A stretch of DNA of 47,447 nt from assembly GCA_944324835.1 (NCBI GenBank), contig CALUXV010000009.1, positions 1 to 47,447 on the forward strand, in the 5' to 3' direction. The position numbers and the translations under genes are program-made. The notes beneath the pieces were generated by a model. It was not told where the DNA came from. It saw nothing but the letters and a program-made list of their open reading frames with translations, and did no database searches. Shown piece after piece: positions 37,235-47,447 of this stretch. Positions within the stretch are counted from its first letter, which is position 1. Every line of letters begins with the position of its first letter. The stretch is from Candidatus Gastranaerophilales bacterium. GTDB taxonomy: Bacteria; Cyanobacteriota; Vampirovibrionia; Gastranaerophilales; Gastranaerophilaceae.

Positions 37235-38239
37235 TTATTGTTCCGCTAATAATTTTATATTTTCTTTTTGAATCATATCCGCAAGTTCTTCTTCGGTTGG
37301 GAGAATTGTTTTATACTTGCTTGCAAAAATCTGCCGGCTTTCCTGTAATACTGAATATTTGACCATAGTTTCAGATTTATCCGTACAAAAAATTATGCCG
37401 ATAGTTGGATTATCGTCTGCACCACGCTTTAGTTCGTCAAACATTCTGACATACATATCCATTTGCCCGATATCTGCATGAGATAATTTTGTAGTTTTTA
37501 AATCAATGACCACAAAGCATTTTAGCAGATAATTATAAAACACCAAATCCGCATAAAAATGGTCTGTTTCGGTACTAATTCTAAATTGGCGTGCAACAAA
37601 AGAAAATCCTTTGCCAAGTTCAAGCAAAAACTTCTGTAAATTATTGATTAAAGCCGATTCTAAAACACTTTCTTTGCCTTCAATATTTTCAGGTAAATCC
37701 AGAAATTCCAAAACATACGGATCTTTGATGAATTCTTTTGTATTAATAACGGTAGGCAGACATTTTTCAGCATCATTTACTTCTGCTTGAGAGGATAAAA
37801 GTCTGTGATAATATCCGCTTTTGATATTACGTTCAAGCTGGCGTGAAGTCCAATTCTGTTCTGATGCCTCTTTTAAATAATAATCTCTTTCTTGTTTGTT
37901 ATCTATTCTGATAATAGTTCTGATATTTGTCCAGGATAAATTCGCTACGCACTGCGTATCGAATTCCGGGTATGTAAGATAGAATTGTCTCATGTTTTTC
38001 AAATTCGCTTCTGAAAAGCCTTTGCCGAAAGTATTTGTCAGGTATCTTGACAAATTTTCAATAAGTTTTGTTCCGTACTCAGCACGGGAGGCTCCGCCCT
38101 GCTCTTCTTCAACAATACGCTGTCCGATTTTTCAGTATGTTTCAACCATAATTGAATTCACGGTATGATAAGCTTTCGCCCGTGCTAAGTTCAATAACTC
38201 TGCTATATCACTATATATTTTAGAAACTTCTTGTGACAT
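37235..38239 (-). pseudogene. DUF1016 / PDDEXK nuclease (YhcG-like), interrupted by an in-frame TGA
   Basis: Read from ATG 38239, the gene encodes MSQEVSKIYSDIAELLNLAR and continues to VNSIMVETY. Codon 36 (38134-38132) is TGA where the family has Trp (ETYWKIGQRIVEEEQ). Reading then continues in the same frame through EYGTKLIENLSRYL and the complete C-terminal PDDEXK domain (FYADLVFYNYLLKCFVVIDLKT, motif pieces YADLVFYN and VVIDLKT) to 37235. A single TGG-to-TGA change explains the break. Re-initiation could still make a 272-residue nuclease domain. DUF1016 proteins are nucleases often found with restriction systems or mobile DNA; the function here is unknown. Confidence 0.85.
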
Positions 38240-42279: not shown

Positions 42280-43107
42280 CTAAATTGTGTGATTTACTTG
42301 AAACGGGGTTTCCTTTATTAAATTTTTCGTTTCATTTTTTTCGTTTTTGTAGGTCAAAATAACTTTTAATATGTACTCTCCATCTGCAAGATTATCAGGA
42401 AGTTTTCCGATTTCTTTAAATATTCCGTTTGCACGAATAGTATTACTGTTCATAGGAAATTCTTTTACCAATTTCCCTCCTTGTATTATCTGCCCCTTGC
42501 CATGGTATCTGACTTTGCTGTTTCCTCCTGCACTTAGATTGAGATTATATACAAGGTTTCTGTTCCGGTTTTCAACTTTCAAATCATCAAATCTCCCGAC
42601 TTTTACAACGTGTCCTTTGTCAACGTAAATCGGGATTCCCAATCGTGTTTTTACAATAAGTCTTGTATTTACGTTTTTATAATTATTCGGAAGCTGTATT
42701 TCTTTTGTAGCAACATCTTCCACAAACATTACCATTCTGGATTCGCCGTCCGGCAGACTTTTTAGATCAGTAAACGTTACACGTACAACCTGAGGAACAC
42801 CGTTTTTCAGCGTAAATTCATTGGGTACAAAACGTGCATGAGAAATTAGATTATCAGGCTTTTCCGATTTTGGTGCGGAATCCATTTTGCCGTTATCGGT
42901 TATCGTGAAATATTCAGGATAAAGTTTAAACCTTACTGTTTCGTCTTTGCCTGCCTGAACACTGAATGAGGTTGTAAGATAGTTCCCCTTACTTTTATTC
43001 GTATTGAGTTCTATCAATGTAGGCATTACTTTTACCGCCGCAAACGATGAATTAATATGAAATATTAATGCAAATAAAATTGCGGATAGTTTTATTATTT
43101 TTCTCAT
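42280..43107 (-). CDS. Periplasmic fimbrial chaperone-like protein
   Basis: A 275-residue protein with signal peptide (MRKIIKLSAILFALIFHINS then SFAAVKV). The body fits a two-domain immunoglobulin-like chaperone: VMPTLIELNTNKSKGNY at the start, FVPNEFTLKNGVPQVVRVTF, and SRMVMFVEDVATKEI, the pattern of the PapD-type first domain. A second domain has NLNLSAGGNSKVRYHGKGQI. Its role would be to hold pilin subunits until delivery to the usher. It lies between an adhesin-like gene (1 bp away) and pilin-like 1 (13 bp away). Confidence 0.65.
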   Translation of the reverse strand: MRKIIKLSAILFALIFHINSSFAAVKVMPTLIELNTNKSKGNYLTTSFSVQAGKDETVRFKLYPEYFTITDNGKMDSAPKSEKPDNLISHARFVPNEFTLKNGVPQVVRVTFTDLKSLPDGESRMVMFVEDVATKEIQLPNNYKNVNTRLIVKTRLGIPIYVDKGHVVKVGRFDDLKVENRNRNLVYNLNLSAGGNSKVRYHGKGQIIQGGKLVKEFPMNSNTIRANGIFKEIGKLPDNLADGEYILKVILTYKNEKNETKNLIKETPFQVNHTI

Positions 43108-43108
43108 T

Positions 43109-44002
43109 TTATTCCCTTTCTAATATATAGGTAAACGGATTTTGCCGAATACCTTCTTTTATATATTTGTCTGTACTTGTATTTTTTAGTGAATATTCTA
43201 TTAATACGTTGGTCGGAACTCGGTTCCCGACATCTATCCCCTCAAGTGTTTCTTCTCCTGATGCAAGAAGATATCTCTGGTTCGAAATTATTCTGATACG
43301 TTCTTGGTTGTATGAAGATACTTTCCCCGAAGCATTTTTTAATTGGCAGTAATACTCACAGTTTTCATCCTCAAGATTCGCCGTATCAAGCCAGAGTTTC
43401 CATTTTGTATTTGATGTCAAATCAAGTCTTATATCGTTTTGGTTTCTGATTACATTTTGAAAATTAAAGATATCATCATCAGTGAGAATAATAACAGGGT
43501 CTCCGCTTAACACCGTTATTGTATGTTTTTCATCAATCATAAATGTAAAAAATAATTCGCATTCATAATCAAGCGTAAATCCTGTTTTGTCTAAAAATTT
43601 CAACAGTACTGTATAATTCCCTGCCGGCAATTCTCCAATATTTTCGAGTTTAAGAGTAATATTTTTTTGTGATGTCCCTGTTATATCAAAGTTGTCGATA
43701 AAAAATCTCTGCCAGTTATTTGTTCCTATCTGGAATTCCTGACCGTCTGCCAGCAGATACAAGTTTTGGATTGGAATTTTGATGTTCGGGTTGTCGTTGT
43801 TTGTTATAAATTCATCTGCGGCCATAACAAACAAACTTGAAAATCCTACTTGAACATAAGTAAGATTTACATTTGCACTGACAGAATTATCCGTCACAAT
43901 AGGAAATCCTGTAACTTCGGCTCTGAAAAACGGATTGGCAGAAGTTTTTACGGGAATCATTATAGAAATCAATATAATAATTAAACTTATAATACGTTTC
44001 AT
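43109..44002 (-). CDS. Secreted fimbrial accessory or tip-like protein
   Basis: About 297 residues from ATG 44002 (an upstream TTG at 44020 adds six). A signal peptide (MKRIISLIIILISIMIPVKT then SANPFFRAEV) is followed by a beta-rich body with SVSANVNLTYVQVGFSSLF and LKLENIGELPAGNYTVLLKF. Cysteines occur in YECELFF and ENCEYYCQL. No family was recognised. As first gene of the chaperone-pilin-usher operon and larger than the pilins, a tip subunit or adhesin is plausible, but that is inference. The start codon is separated from the divergent gene by about 150 bp. Confidence 0.6.
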   Translation of the reverse strand: MKRIISLIIILISIMIPVKTSANPFFRAEVTGFPIVTDNSVSANVNLTYVQVGFSSLFVMAADEFITNNDNPNIKIPIQNLYLLADGQEFQIGTNNWQRFFIDNFDITGTSQKNITLKLENIGELPAGNYTVLLKFLDKTGFTLDYECELFFTFMIDEKHTITVLSGDPVIILTDDDIFNFQNVIRNQNDIRLDLTSNTKWKLWLDTANLEDENCEYYCQLKNASGKVSSYNQERIRIISNQRYLLASGEETLEGIDVGNRVPTNVLIEYSLKNTSTDKYIKEGIRQNPFTYILERE

Positions 44003-44017
44003 TTTTTTATAAATCCT

Positions 44018-44038
44018 CAAACCTTTTATAAAAGTTTG
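44018..44038. promoter_or_regulatory. Palindrome in the divergent fimbrial promoter region
   Basis: CTTTTATAAAAG is a 12-bp perfect palindrome flanked by CAAAC and TTTG, giving an almost continuous inverted repeat over 21 bp. It sits just upstream of the ATG at 44002 and in the interval between the two divergent fimbrial transcripts, where a regulator could control both. Confidence 0.4.
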
Positions 44039-44149
44039 TAATAACTAAAAAAACCGTCTGATGTAGAAAATATGGGATGATATTTTTTTATCCAAAAGGG
44101 GAATTTGTATATTTTTATGAAAAAGTTAGAGTACTTATGAGGAAATTTA

Positions 44150-44623
44150 ATGAAGAAATACTTAATTTTGTTATTGTGTTTAATAAATTCAGGAATAACA
44201 TTTGCCACAGAATCAAGACAAAATATACAGGCAGTTCTGCCGGAGGTTTTGCATATAGATAAAATTATCGTTGAAGGCAAAGAATTTGATAAAGACGAAA
44301 AATTGACTGTTATGGATATAAAAGCAGTAGAAAATTTAAGTGAAAGCTGCTGCCGCTTAAATTTGAGTCCTTTTTCCTTACGTATAAATACAAACCTTGC
44401 AGACCCGATTCAGGTAAGTGCAAAATTCGAAAATTGCTGCAGTTCTTGCGGAAGATACCCGATGGATAATGAGGATTTATCTGTTACTCCGTCATCTTAT
44501 ACAATCTACAATCCATATGACAAAATAGAAACGGATTTTTTTACTCCGCAGGTACTGGCACATGATTATACTGTTTGTACAACTTATAACGCAAAACTTG
44601 TTATTACTCTGGGGCGGGTATAA
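44150..44623 (+). CDS. Small pilin-like secreted protein with Cys pairs
   Basis: A 157-residue secreted protein (signal peptide MKKYLILLLCLINSGITFAT). It resembles the two pilin-like proteins at the N-terminus (RQNIQAVLPEVLHIDKII compared with LQATLPAYVDIQ) and at the C-terminus (TTYNAKLVITLGRV compared with YEAYIIL). Mature cysteines occur as SCCRLN, ENCCSSCGR and YTVCTT. It is therefore probably a minor fimbrial subunit transcribed divergently from the main operon. GAGGAAATTTA precedes the ATG. It is followed after 2 bp by a membrane-anchored partner. Confidence 0.6.
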   Translation: MKKYLILLLCLINSGITFATESRQNIQAVLPEVLHIDKIIVEGKEFDKDEKLTVMDIKAVENLSESCCRLNLSPFSLRINTNLADPIQVSAKFENCCSSCGRYPMDNEDLSVTPSSYTIYNPYDKIETDFFTPQVLAHDYTVCTTYNAKLVITLGRV

Positions 44624-44625
44624 AT

Positions 44626-45384
44626 ATGATTAAAAAAATTACGACAATTTTTCTGATTTTTTTATTAAATATTACCCCGGTAATGGCTCGAGTTGGAACT
44701 CCGACTTTCGATTTTGAAATCCCGGATTTGTTTAATAACCCTGATGTACCATCCGGCGAAAGAAAAAAAGATGACGGAGGCTTGTCAGGAGGAGCCGTAA
44801 CCGCAATAACTTTAGGTTCGATAGGCGGAGCCGCACTATTAGGTTTAGGTGGATGGCTTTATAGAAGAAAAGTCAGCCAGTGTTTGACTGCCGGCTGTAT
44901 TCAAGGGGCAAAAAACCCTTTGATACCTTTCTGTATGGAAAGAAATGCTGATGCTGAAGTTTACGTGAGAATAAATAATAATTATCCGTATCTGAAAAAA
45001 GCGTTGAGTCTTAATGAAATACATTATTGCCCTGATTCTCAATATCTGCTTATATATGATACCGTAATCGGCAAACGAAAATTTGATTCCGTAAGATTTT
45101 GCCTGCCGCAAGGAGTGCAGGAGTTAAGAATTACTCAGGTTAGCGACCCGTTTGAAGGTAATGATTTAACCGCTGAAATATTTTTGTATAAAAACGATTC
45201 AAATACAGAAGAACCTGTAATTGCGAATCTTTCTGATTGCGGACAAAATTCTTCTAAATCAGGGGTTCTTATTAAAACATTAAATACGAATTTTAAAGAG
45301 TATAAAACGGCATCTTATGTTGTTTCAAACTATACAGAGAAAAAGATTTACGCCGTTGTGATTGAGTTTGTGTATAGGAAATAA
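44626..45384 (+). CDS. Membrane-anchored secreted protein of the fimbrial locus
   Basis: A 252-residue protein with an N-terminal signal (MIKKITTIFLIFLLNITPVM then ARVG). A Gly-rich linker follows (GGLSGGAV), then a second hydrophobic helix AITLGSIGGAALLGLGGWLY with YRRK after it. A domain of about 170 residues with seven cysteines comes next (SQCLTAGC, FCMER, HYCPDS, FCLPQG, SDCGQN). The last residues AVVIEFVYRK resemble the pilin C-terminal strands. It could be an anchor or assembly component; no family is recognised. It is 2 bp from the preceding gene and surely co-transcribed. Confidence 0.55.
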   Translation: MIKKITTIFLIFLLNITPVMARVGTPTFDFEIPDLFNNPDVPSGERKKDDGGLSGGAVTAITLGSIGGAALLGLGGWLYRRKVSQCLTAGCIQGAKNPLIPFCMERNADAEVYVRINNNYPYLKKALSLNEIHYCPDSQYLLIYDTVIGKRKFDSVRFCLPQGVQELRITQVSDPFEGNDLTAEIFLYKNDSNTEEPVIANLSDCGQNSSKSGVLIKTLNTNFKEYKTASYVVSNYTEKKIYAVVIEFVYRK

Positions 45385-45432: not shown

Positions 45433-45537
45433 CTGGGTAAATATTTTTTTGTCACTGTGAGTATAAATTATTTCATACAATAATTTAAATCTATTTAAAA
45501 ATTTGGCCCAAATAGGATAAAGGAAAAATTTTTATAT

Positions 45538-45552
45538 TATAATTAACTCATG
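45538..45552 (+). promoter_or_regulatory. Putative leaderless promoter of the methyltransferase gene
   Basis: TATAAT at 45538-45543 ends six bases before the ATG at 45550. There is no ribosome binding site between them. A well-placed -35 hexamer was not found, so the promoter would depend on its consensus -10 or on an activator. Confidence 0.45.
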
Positions 45553-46308
45553 CAAAAGGTCTATGAAAAGGATGATATAACCTTATTTTTAGGTGATTGT
45601 ATTGAAATTTTAAATAAAGCAACTCCTGAATCAGTTGATATGATTTTTGCGGATCCTCCATATATGCTATCTAACGGAGGAATTACTTGCCATACCGGAA
45701 AAGTTGTTTCTGTGAACAAAGGCAAATGGGATGAGAGTAAAGGTATTGAAGAAGATTTCAAATTTCATCAGGCTTGGATTAACGCTTGTAAGAGAGTTTT
45801 AAAAACTAACGGCACTATATGGATTTCAGGTACTTACCATTCAATTTATGCTTGCGGATTTGCTTTACAGACAGCAGGATTTAAAATTCTAAACGATATT
45901 TGCTGGTTTAAGCCAAATGCTTCGCCTAATATGAGTTGTAGATATTTTACAGCAAGCCATGAAACATTGTTATGGGCAAGAAAAGACCCAAAAGGTAAAC
46001 ATACTTTTAACTATGAAGCAATGAAAAATGGTGATTGGGGTGAAGATTTTATTAAAAAGCCAGAAAAACAAATGCGTTCAGTCTGGGCAATAGGAACTAC
46101 AAAAAGTTATGAAAAAGAATTTGGTAAACATCCAACACAAAAACCTTTAGAATTGTTAAGGCGTATAATCCTTGCATCAACGAATGTTGGAGATTTGATT
46201 CTTGATCCTTTTACAGGAAGCTCAACAACTGGTATAATGGCTTTAGAATTAGATAGGAAATTTATTGGTATAGACTTGGAAAAAGAATATTTAGACGAAG
46301 TTGCTTAA
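45550..46308 (+). CDS. DNA adenine N6-methyltransferase, DpnA-like (GATC type suspected)
   Basis: A beta-class DNA methyltransferase of 252 residues. The catalytic motif IV DPPY is at residues 35-38, followed by MLSNGGIT and VVSVNKGKWDES. The SAM motif DPFTGSSTTG is near 219-228, preceded by KHPTQKPLELL. The run DPPY-LSNGGI-VVSV-KG-WD and CRYFTASHETLLWARK closely recall, from memory, DpnA (M2.DpnII), which methylates adenine in GATC and can act on single strands. The C-terminus ends about 15 residues earlier than DpnA, in KEYLDEVA. The stop codon lies two bases before the DpnI-type gene. Specificity cannot be proven from sequence. Confidence 0.85.
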   Translation: MQKVYEKDDITLFLGDCIEILNKATPESVDMIFADPPYMLSNGGITCHTGKVVSVNKGKWDESKGIEEDFKFHQAWINACKRVLKTNGTIWISGTYHSIYACGFALQTAGFKILNDICWFKPNASPNMSCRYFTASHETLLWARKDPKGKHTFNYEAMKNGDWGEDFIKKPEKQMRSVWAIGTTKSYEKEFGKHPTQKPLELLRRIILASTNVGDLILDPFTGSSTTGIMALELDRKFIGIDLEKEYLDEVA

Positions 46309-46310
46309 GT

Positions 46311-47075
46311 ATGAATTTATTTTTTAATACAAATTTAGCAGAAGAATATCACTCAAATTCACAGAAAATAAGGGTAATGAGTGAAAATTGGGTGAATGAT
46401 AACGTTTATTGCGTAAGGTGTGGAAACAAATTATCTCATTTTGAGAACAATAAACCTGTTGGGGATTTCTATTGTGAAAAGTGTAATGAAGAATTTGAAT
46501 TAAAGAGTAACAAATCAAAACTCGGCAAAAAAATAGTTGATGGTGCTTATGAAACAATGATAGATAAAATTAGAAATGGTGACGTACCTAATTTTTTCTA
46601 CTTGAATTATGATTTAAAAACTTATTCTGTTAATAATTTATTAATCATCCCTAAACATTATTTTACGGAAAGTATTATTCTAAAAAGACCTCCACTACCT
46701 GAAACAGCGCGTAGAGCAGGATGGATTGGTTGTAATATTGATGTTTCATCAATACCATCATCAGGAAAACTATACTTAATTTCTAATCGACAAGTTGTTG
46801 ATAAACAAGTGGTTATTTCTAATTTTAATAAAATGTTATTTTTAAGAAGTCAAAAGAATGAACTAAAAGGATGGTTATTGGATATAATGAAATGTATTGA
46901 TTTGTTAAATAAGAAAAATTTCACATTGGATGAAATATATTCTTTTGAAAATTTCCTAAAATTAAAACATCCTAATAATAACAATATTAGAGCAAAAATA
47001 AGACAGCAGTTACAATTTTTAAGAGATTATGGTTATTTAATATTTACTAAACGAGGAGAATATACTTTAGCATGA
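46311..47075 (+). CDS. dpnI: DpnI-type methyl-dependent restriction endonuclease
   Basis: A 254-residue protein, the same length as pneumococcal DpnI, which cuts GATC only when the adenine is methylated. Zinc-binding cysteines are C34, C37, C55 and C58. The PD-(D/E)xK site is D52 in VGDFYC with E63 and K65 in EFELKS. Shared features include YHSNSQKIRVMSENWV, RPPLPETARRAGWIGCNID and the C-terminal winged helix KIRQQLQFLRDYGYLIF, which in DpnI also reads the methylated base. It follows the DpnA-like methylase by 2 bp and overlaps the next gene by 4 bp (ATGA). Confidence 0.95.
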   Translation: MNLFFNTNLAEEYHSNSQKIRVMSENWVNDNVYCVRCGNKLSHFENNKPVGDFYCEKCNEEFELKSNKSKLGKKIVDGAYETMIDKIRNGDVPNFFYLNYDLKTYSVNNLLIIPKHYFTESIILKRPPLPETARRAGWIGCNIDVSSIPSSGKLYLISNRQVVDKQVVISNFNKMLFLRSQKNELKGWLLDIMKCIDLLNKKNFTLDEIYSFENFLKLKHPNNNNIRAKIRQQLQFLRDYGYLIFTKRGEYTLA

Positions 47076-47281
47076 AAACATTTATGTTTTATACGCGTGA
47101 TGGCTTTACGCAAGATATAAATAACAAGGATATTGATAATATGCAAATTTTAGGGTTTGTTCAAGGGAAAGATACGACATCTGCATATAAAAATTTTAGA
47201 AAAATTTTCAATCAAAATAATGAATTCTGTTTTAATGAAATAATTGTTCAAGAAGTTATTGGAAAACCAACATATTTATAA
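47072..47281 (+). CDS. Small protein coupled to the DpnI-type gene
   Basis: A 69-residue protein whose ATG overlaps the endonuclease stop codon (ATGA), so it is translationally coupled. It has no signal peptide or membrane segment. The sequence is mixed alpha/beta with IDNMQILGFVQGKDTTSAYK and FNEIIVQEVIGKP. In pneumococcus dpnI is followed by dpnD, so position suggests a DpnD-like accessory, but I do not see a convincing match to the DpnD/PcfM pattern. Function unknown. Confidence 0.6.
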   Translation: MKTFMFYTRDGFTQDINNKDIDNMQILGFVQGKDTTSAYKNFRKIFNQNNEFCFNEIIVQEVIGKPTYL

Positions 47282-47283
47282 CT

Positions 47284-47447
47284 TTAAAATGTATTCCTTT
47301 GCTTATAACTGTAAGAGCTAATGAAATTTATACAATAGATAAGGATGGGGAATTTAATTTTTCATTCAAGAAAATGAATTATTCTATTGAAGAATACAAA
47401 ATGTTTATGAGAAAAACGAAACTTTTTGACTTGTTACAAAACCACAT
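47284..47447 (+). CDS. Possible partial reading frame at the window edge, no ATG near its start
   Basis: The frame that includes 47284 is open from about 47239 to the end of the window. It encodes a protein-like stretch with VRANEIYTIDKDGEFNFSFK and NYSIEEYKMFMRKTKLFDLL. No ATG occurs before about 47374; ATT or TTG near 47293-47299 are possible starts. It may be a new gene with an unusual start, or the continuation of a frameshifted 47072 gene. It runs out of the window. Confidence 0.3.

Follow-up and report, generated by a model that had tools for sequence, protein, structure and literature searches.

The window analysed here, a stretch of 47,447 nucleotides, corresponds to contig C9 of G000, a Candidatus Gastranaerophilales genome of 1.98 Mb (97 contigs, 97.4% complete) that falls in one genus with G176. 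At the 3' end of this contig, a 252-aa adenine methylase of the PF01555 family is followed by a 254-aa DpnI and then by a 69-aa ORF. The features of this region, in window coordinates, are the following:

45528..45549, + strand: left cassette edge; DNA identity to the intact cassettes compared begins some 20 bp upstream of the dpnA start
45550..46308, + strand: dpnA' (DpnA-type adenine methylase, 3'-truncated); 252 aa, of which residues 1-249 match a 267-aa orthologue
46110..46296, + strand: 3' part of dpnA'; 187 bp identical to dpnA of the loci L124, L129 and L156
46296..46297, unstranded: left junction; dpnA homology ends after codon 249
46297..46310, + strand: short leader before dpnI, which gives dpnA' its new stop codon
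46311..47075, + strand: dpnI (predicted methyl-directed GATC endonuclease), with complete catalytic and winged-helix domains
47072..47281, + strand: 69-aa ORF overlapping the dpnI stop, without Pfam match
47280..47281, unstranded: right junction; dpnB homology restarts at about codon 65
47281..47447, + strand: dpnB' (DpnII nuclease gene lacking ~65 codons at its 5' end), running off the contig end and continuing on contig C47 of G000 to base 531

Matches to the intact cassettes begin at 44949+579 to 582. A first-pass annotation of this DNA had placed a methylase and a DpnI-type nuclease side by side with a spacing of 2 bp, and both ORFs (45550-46308 and 46311-47075) are indeed found as described, together with the GATC sites that it pointed out inside the locus at 45652 and 46204. 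Elsewhere in the window, positions 37235-38053 (-) encode a YhcG-type nuclease (PF06250) with a TTG start, whose N-terminal DUF1016 domain begins only at profile position 52; this protein is possibly truncated. Three proteins encoded upstream of dpnA' (42280-45384) have signal-peptide-like starts by eye and no Pfam match.

The methylase (45550-46308, +) matches PF01555 with an E-value of 3.6e-62, with DPPY at residue 35 and FTGSS at residue 221. Its protein is 86-93% identical at the amino acid level to the 17 full-length DpnA proteins of complete DpnII operons, and on the basis of this identity and of the operon position in relatives it is classified as a DpnA orthologue, a methylase of a GATC operon, in agreement with its initial description as DpnA-like. 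Its C-terminus is incomplete: homology stops at residue 249 and three new residues follow, where orthologues in the order reach 267 aa. The 18 missing residues belong to a tail that is conserved in 33 distinct intact orthologues (35 were taken, with L130, L141 and L157 excluded as incomplete or frameshifted) and that is absent from the window, L007, L012 and L008 copies alike. The first-pass annotation had overlooked this loss, as well as the 5'-truncated DpnII nuclease gene that starts at 47281. A predicted structure of the window methylase (mean pLDDT 61) shows a 7-residue final helix, which is simply noted.

The nuclease gene (46311-47075, +) encodes 254 aa and a complete DpnI-type enzyme, as first annotated. 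Both Pfam domains are covered over their full length, PF06044 (E 5.2e-79) from 1 to 182 of 183 positions and PF17726 (E 3.1e-30) from 2 to 68 of 70, and the protein is identical to R.DpnI (4esj) at 124 of 251 positions (49%, E 5e-79, over 252 residues). It retains D52/E63/K65 and Gln18. The catalytic D53/E64/K66 are conserved, E64 being presumably a catalytic residue of DpnI, the cysteines of which are likewise taken to be zinc ligands. The methyl-pocket residues Leu129/Arg135/Trp138/Gly140 are all conserved as well; the roles of D53, K66 and of the pocket residues are described in PMC4117772. Downstream, the 69-aa ORF, which closes the stretch (45550-47281) described by the first-pass annotation, is a member of a small family found directly after dpnI in 22 of 80 loci. 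The pneumococcal dpnC-dpnD cassette carries DpnD beside dpnI, whereas this ORF has no DpnD match: neither Pfam nor hhalign shows a relationship between them, with only 17-23 N-terminal columns aligning to DpnD-like groups in hhalign.

The last gene, dpnB', matches PF04556 positions 62-121 up to the contig end, and the rest of it (positions 112-276) lies on contig C47, which begins with an overlap of exactly 35 bp with the end of the window. The DpnII nuclease of G000 is incomplete, covering only profile positions 62-276 across the two contigs. The 69-aa gene is followed in L007 and L012 by a 215-codon ORF, a DpnII nuclease without its N-terminus, and in L008 by an equivalent of 182 codons; the PF04556 match begins at position 68 in L012 and at 108 in the shorter L008 ORF. 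The presence of dpnA' and dpnB' on either side of dpnI bears out the earlier remark that pieces of two normally exclusive systems share one operon.

No dpnM-like gene could be recognised in G000, in which neither a D12 match (E<=0.01) nor a PF05869 match (E<=0.001) was obtained and other PF01555 methylases are present. Elsewhere in the seven dpnI genomes of the order, no close relative of DpnM was detected, and one is present in five of the five DpnII genomes tested; two of the seven, G085 and G153, contain distant D12 methylases that are 28-29% identical and below the TIGR00571 cut-off. These results do not support the self-destruction of the cell that the first-pass annotation had envisaged: no dpnM-like gene was found in the genome and the DpnII nuclease gene is truncated.

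Among 383 genomes of Gastranaerophilales, 7 contain DpnI and 51 a DpnII match, six of these 51 being dpnI genomes too. A truncated DpnII gene lies behind dpnI in G000, G176, G085, G103 and G153, the last of these copies with a stop, and G024 shows a weak DpnII match away from dpnI and no dpnA at its dpnI locus. From the other 45 DpnII-match genomes, 19 loci (L124-L142) were taken as the intact set. All 19 present dpnA, dpnM and dpnB in that order, with a full-length dpnA in 17 (L141 is frameshifted and L130 is cut by a contig end) and sometimes a small nuclease-like gene before dpnB. The dpnA and dpnM genes overlap in the intact L124 (2959-3762 and 3753-4595), and dpnB of the intact operons is 86-96% identical to the L012 remnant.

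When the window is compared with L124, identity extends through dpnA to 46296, breaks, and restarts at 47281 near dpnB codon 65. The window lacks dpnM and the small gene entirely, together with 54 bp of dpnA and about 190 bp of dpnB, a total of 1581 bp, in place of which there are 984 bp comprising dpnI and the 69-codon gene. A before and after situation is provided by L012, a hybrid locus of G085, and L124, the intact DpnII locus of G192, which belongs to another genus. Identity between them is 99.46% in 2944 bp of upstream flank and 96.6% in 641 bp of dpnB, and between flank and dpnB 1581 bp are replaced by 984 bp. In a third genus, L163 (G046) has 1605 bp of the same upstream flank at 99.8% identity; it carries dpnA-dpnM, and neither dpnB nor dpnI was found in 7.5 kb. 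The flank encodes a DndB-type protein and an AAA ATPase (L124 1053-2345, -, and its counterpart in L012), and the stretch common to three genera may therefore be a mobile defence island. The upstream flank of the window matched only itself among the 8 genomes of its genus and none of the comparison loci; the before and after pair is that of L012 and L124.

The same pair of junctions is found in the window, L007 and L012, and within about 5 bp in L008. The search for the two-gene pair in other genomes that had been proposed at the outset places dpnA-dpnI in at least 4 genomes, so that the possibility of a unique occurrence, raised by the first-pass annotation as an argument against its own reading, does not apply. 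This recurrence also bears on a possible assembly or binning chimera of DpnI and DpnII strains. Every genome compared is a MAG or a bin, the loci of the window and of L012 are close to contig ends, and the window contig stops about 170 bp past the right junction; the junctions nevertheless recur in L007, which lies on a 443-kb contig away from its ends, in L012 and in L008, whose dpnI genes are 85-99% identical to that of the window and hence separate sequences. A chimera is extremely improbable. In plasmid and phage collections, just two Neisseria gonorrhoeae records and one partial phage record matched.

A second pair of junctions occurs in L092/L168 (G153), where dpnA is broken at about codon 226 and dpnB restarts at about codon 35. 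Since this locus has less dpnA and more dpnB, neither pair of junctions derives from the other by deletion alone. The leader that precedes dpnI in L092/L168 is similar to that of the window, and such a leader is found before dpnI in L007-L012 and L092. In L011/L090 (G147), about 50 dpnA codons are kept and dpnB is absent.

In no case (0/6) is dpnM kept at a dpnI locus with dpnA, against 38 of the 38 dpnA loci without dpnI. The latter, picked from the listed matches and not at random, consist of the 19 DpnII loci and 19 others (L154-L173 except L168; L160 is cut by a contig end). In these 19 further loci, the gene after dpnM encodes a 174-aa PD-(D/E)XK-like protein in 10 cases, and in 5 an opposite-strand gene encodes a MutH/MvaI-like protein, each assignment being based on the scan of a single representative; L163 has neither, and L166 and L167 contain an incomplete dpnB, at a contig end in L167. 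The dpnA-dpnM pairs of L154-L159, L161-L165 and L169-L173 are probably GATC systems with exchanged nucleases.

The systematic absence of dpnM weighs on the suggestion that the locus is a suicide or abortive-infection switch, in which the methylase would trigger self-cleavage. A conflict between the two activities would arise if double-stranded GATC were the substrate of both; no DpnM-type double-strand methylase remains, however, dpnM being missing in six of six such loci, dpnA decays in several relatives, and the architecture is that of a truncation scar. Such a switch is highly improbable. The first-pass annotation had also proposed a methylase of altered specificity, sharing no site with DpnI. 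This would remove the conflict, and a target is unreadable from sequence; the window copy is nevertheless unsubstituted at the 154 columns that are invariant in the 33 intact orthologues, 17 of which come from complete DpnII operons, which makes a changed target very unlikely. By comparison, the intact alleles average 0.8 private substitutions at these columns (0-5), and L007 has two (W91R, K150R), L008 one and L012 one. The dpnA' gene of the window is undecayed apart from its tail, and the shortened protein may therefore still be active. Its pairwise dN/dS is 0.09-0.11. This ratio was dropped as a test of DpnA function and proves none, because dpnB', presumably inactive, gives equally low values (0.06-0.09 among L007, L008 and L012).

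DpnA' and DpnI could also form a selected functional pair, in which DpnA' would still methylate single-stranded GATC, for instance on incoming DNA, and DpnI would cut DNA methylated on both strands; the two would be compatible because methylation of one strand at a time generates only hemimethylated sites. The dpnA' gene is open and conserved in the window, L007 and L012, and long open dpnA-like genes follow dpnI in L014, L023, L024, L027, L028, L040, L045 and L065. On the other hand, dpnA is interrupted by a stop at codon 245 in L008 and by a stop and a frameshift in L092, is reduced to about 50 codons in L011 and to later fragments only in L009, and survives as fragments in many loci of the Bacteroidetes type; the conserved tail is absent from each of the four window-type copies, and dpnB' is equally conserved although presumably inactive. 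A selected pair is doubtful. The gene could instead be kept open solely for translational coupling, with ribosomes re-starting at dpnI 2 bp further on, which would fit the spacing in the window, the similar one in L007 and L012, and the overlap of dpnA and dpnM in the intact operon L124. This explanation is rather unlikely too, given that the reading frame of dpnA' is broken well upstream of dpnI in L092 and 27 bp ahead of it in L008.

The genes of the locus differ in their divergence. Between the window and L012, dS is 0.11 for dpnI and 0.62 for dpnA; between the window and L007, it is 0.22 and 0.66, respectively. Identity between the window and L012 is 74-84% in the part of dpnA up to about 46100, rises to 95-100% from there through dpnI and the 69-aa gene, and is 92-98% in dpnB'. 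The last 187 bp of dpnA' are identical to the intact DpnII operons L124 and L129 and to the dpnA-dpnM locus L156, while positions 45550-46100 are at most 90% identical to any other dpnA allele compared, so that a recombination breakpoint probably lies near 46100. In the loci with a shared flank, identity is 99-100% from about 2.5 kb upstream to the dpnA start, and it falls at different points within dpnA for different pairs, as expected of crossovers there. A comparable contrast between dpnI and dpnM is seen in Bacteroidetes-type loci (dS of 0.25 vs 1.06 for L037-L050, 0.34 vs 1.16 for L022-L033 and 0.44 vs 1.03 for L019-L023), even if other pairs show no clear difference, such as L023-L040 (1.00 vs 1.36). 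By these distances, dpnI alleles are often younger than the surrounding genes and have therefore probably spread by recombination in the remnants.

The association extends beyond the order. Scanned with the window DpnI, species genomes yielded 90 relatives, and the best 80 of them were retained. Remnants of DpnII operons (E up to 1e-3) were detected within 3.5 kb of dpnI in 42 of these best 80 loci, with dpnM upstream on the same strand in 25, dpnA in 32 and dpnB in 6, the L074 match being weak (31%); the other 38 showed no remnant. No remnant hit was obtained in 275.5 kb of distal DNA of the same loci, as compared with 537 kb of near DNA scanned. The codon at which dpnM breaks off varies widely among the pieces, and it always lies within 106 bp of dpnI. 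The 37 dpnI genomes searched yielded no complete DpnII; those of L009, L010 and L070 contain fragments, and that of L040 a match that falls short of the cut-off. With DpnM as a query on 43 dpnI genomes, 13 close and long matches (43-46%) were obtained, all directly upstream of dpnI and ending at residue 241-271 of 280; the remainder comprises short pieces, at up to 53% identity, and distant D12 methylases, at about 23-37%, two of which have an N-terminal piece with 41-42% identity to DpnM. The long Bacteroidetes-type D12 genes before dpnI were considered as a second paradox and discarded, as the DpnM C-terminal strand, GKITEVLVRNY, is absent from 14 of the 14 aligned copies over 250 aa.

Several further observations were made on these loci. 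An opposite-strand gene of 160-180 aa lies behind dpnI and its small partner gene in L055 (6972-7517, -) and 18 others, i.e. in 19 of 80 dpnI loci, by title mostly Bacteroidetes. The one member scanned matches PF05869 'Dam', a phage-type adenine methylase, and by this match the gene is a second recurrent methylase neighbour of dpnI. A conserved leader of the CCACTNCAATCCCTAACGC type is located 34-37 bp before the dpnI start in 17 loci (e.g. L014 2158-2176, L024, L028, L037). Among these loci it is confined to that site, where it forms part of the aberrant tail of a broken dpnM, and it possibly marks one end of a mobile unit carrying dpnI; an integron attC is not supported, three examples folding no better than shuffles. 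In Streptococcus anginosus J4206 (L070 5790-7400), an N-terminal dpnM remnant is followed by dpnI, a gene of the dpnD-like cluster and a DpnII C-terminal remnant with a stop. The dpnM match stops there at codon 45 and, by eye, the following residues may resemble the DpnM end; an internal deletion of dpnM is possible. Finally, L009 and L010, from MAGs titled Desulfovibrionaceae and Spirochaetales, contain a dpnI 77-81% identical to that of the window with dpnA or dpnB fragments, which suggests a transfer between phyla or mis-binning.

As judged from these comparisons, the locus is very probably a DpnII-type GATC restriction-modification operon that was converted to the DpnI type, and its present structure the scar of a cassette swap. 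The ancestral order would have been dpnA, dpnM, sometimes a small gene, and dpnB. A unit of about 1 kb composed of the leader, dpnI and the 69-aa gene would have displaced 54 bp at the 3' end of dpnA, the whole of dpnM and ~190 bp at the 5' end of dpnB; with this one change, the double-strand methylase would have been lost, the DpnII nuclease inactivated and DpnI gained. As a consequence of a single replacement, genomic GATC would be unmethylated and DpnI would attack only incoming methylated DNA. From known enzyme properties, a gain of DpnI with a working DpnM, or a loss of DpnM with a working DpnB, should each be lethal; a single replacement would avoid both states because dpnM is lost and dpnB broken as dpnI arrives.

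DpnA, of the single-strand type and here shortened, would be tolerated beside DpnI. It could stay because the pneumococcal DpnA is a single-strand methylase (PMC3573125) and because DpnI cuts less efficiently if only one strand is methylated (PMC4117772). The same authors also explain that the integration of methylated single-stranded donor DNA never yields doubly methylated chromosome sites in DpnI cells, an argument that may by analogy be extended to a resident DpnA. A second GATC methylase of Prevotella intermedia, assumed here to be DpnA-like, is reported to give no protection when expressed in E. coli (PMC5608340). A methylase restricted to single-stranded incoming DNA was the closest of the options listed by the first-pass annotation, even if the main explanation, a recombination scar, was not among them.

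The dpnA and dpnB remnants would then act as homology arms, and the dpnI version would spread into other DpnII operons. The balance leans slightly towards a more general view, in which GATC operons would be a swappable chassis: remnant arms would convert a DpnII cell to a DpnI cell in one step, with dpnM and dpnB deleted together. This natural route through a switch called lethal would have been taken repeatedly, in Gastranaerophilales and in Bacteroidetes and possibly also in streptococci.

Two precedents can be recognised. The pneumococcal DpnI/DpnII cassettes involve the same two opposite systems at one place, and the DpnA, DpnM, DpnB and DpnI types are all recognised in Gastranaerophilales; the pneumococcal systems alternate at a common location (PMC3573125), whereas the window dpnI lies inside a DpnII operon, next to a dpnA' that is orthologous to DpnA of such operons but lacks the last 18 residues and the operon partners. 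In Neisseria, a DpnI homologue (drg / NmeBII, the dam replacing gene) interrupts the GATC methylase gene dam; in the window, similarly, dpnI takes the place of dpnM between dpnA' and dpnB'. Some strains have a truncated dam, and dam+/drg- and dam-/drg+ are described as mutually exclusive (PMC516771, PMC4269198). The Neisseria drg differs in that it concerns a solitary dam at leuS, whereas in the window a three-gene DpnII operon lost dpnM and the 5' end of dpnB, leaving dpnA and dpnB remnants on either side of dpnI. No report of dpnI inside DpnII operons was found in the open-access literature among the matches listed.

According to Johnston et al., switching between the Dpn systems should be lethal, as DpnI would destroy the chromosome of a DpnII recipient and vice versa (PMC3573125); one such switch has been described inside a pneumococcal lineage (PMC4263131). 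Rusinov et al. described an avoidance of GATC in most genomes with DpnI-like enzymes, which they called surprising (PMC4687349). For the window and 18 further genomes of the order, each represented by 20-107 kb of sequence, the observed/expected ratio of GATC is 0.15-0.46 in 6 DpnI genomes, 0.12-0.51 in 6 DpnII genomes and 0.15-0.41 in 7 with neither. Avoidance is strong in all classes and was set aside as a non-diagnostic marker of a past DpnII. The location of about half of the dpnI loci on former DpnII operons bears on the avoidance puzzle as a lead only, because avoidance is found whichever system is present.

The natural before and after pair on nearly identical flanks offers a simple reason why a lethal-seeming switch can work, and the dpnA'-dpnI-dpnB' arrangement provides testable constructs for the exchange of opposite defence systems. 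The swap suggests how bacteria may change between two opposite DNA-defence systems without killing themselves.
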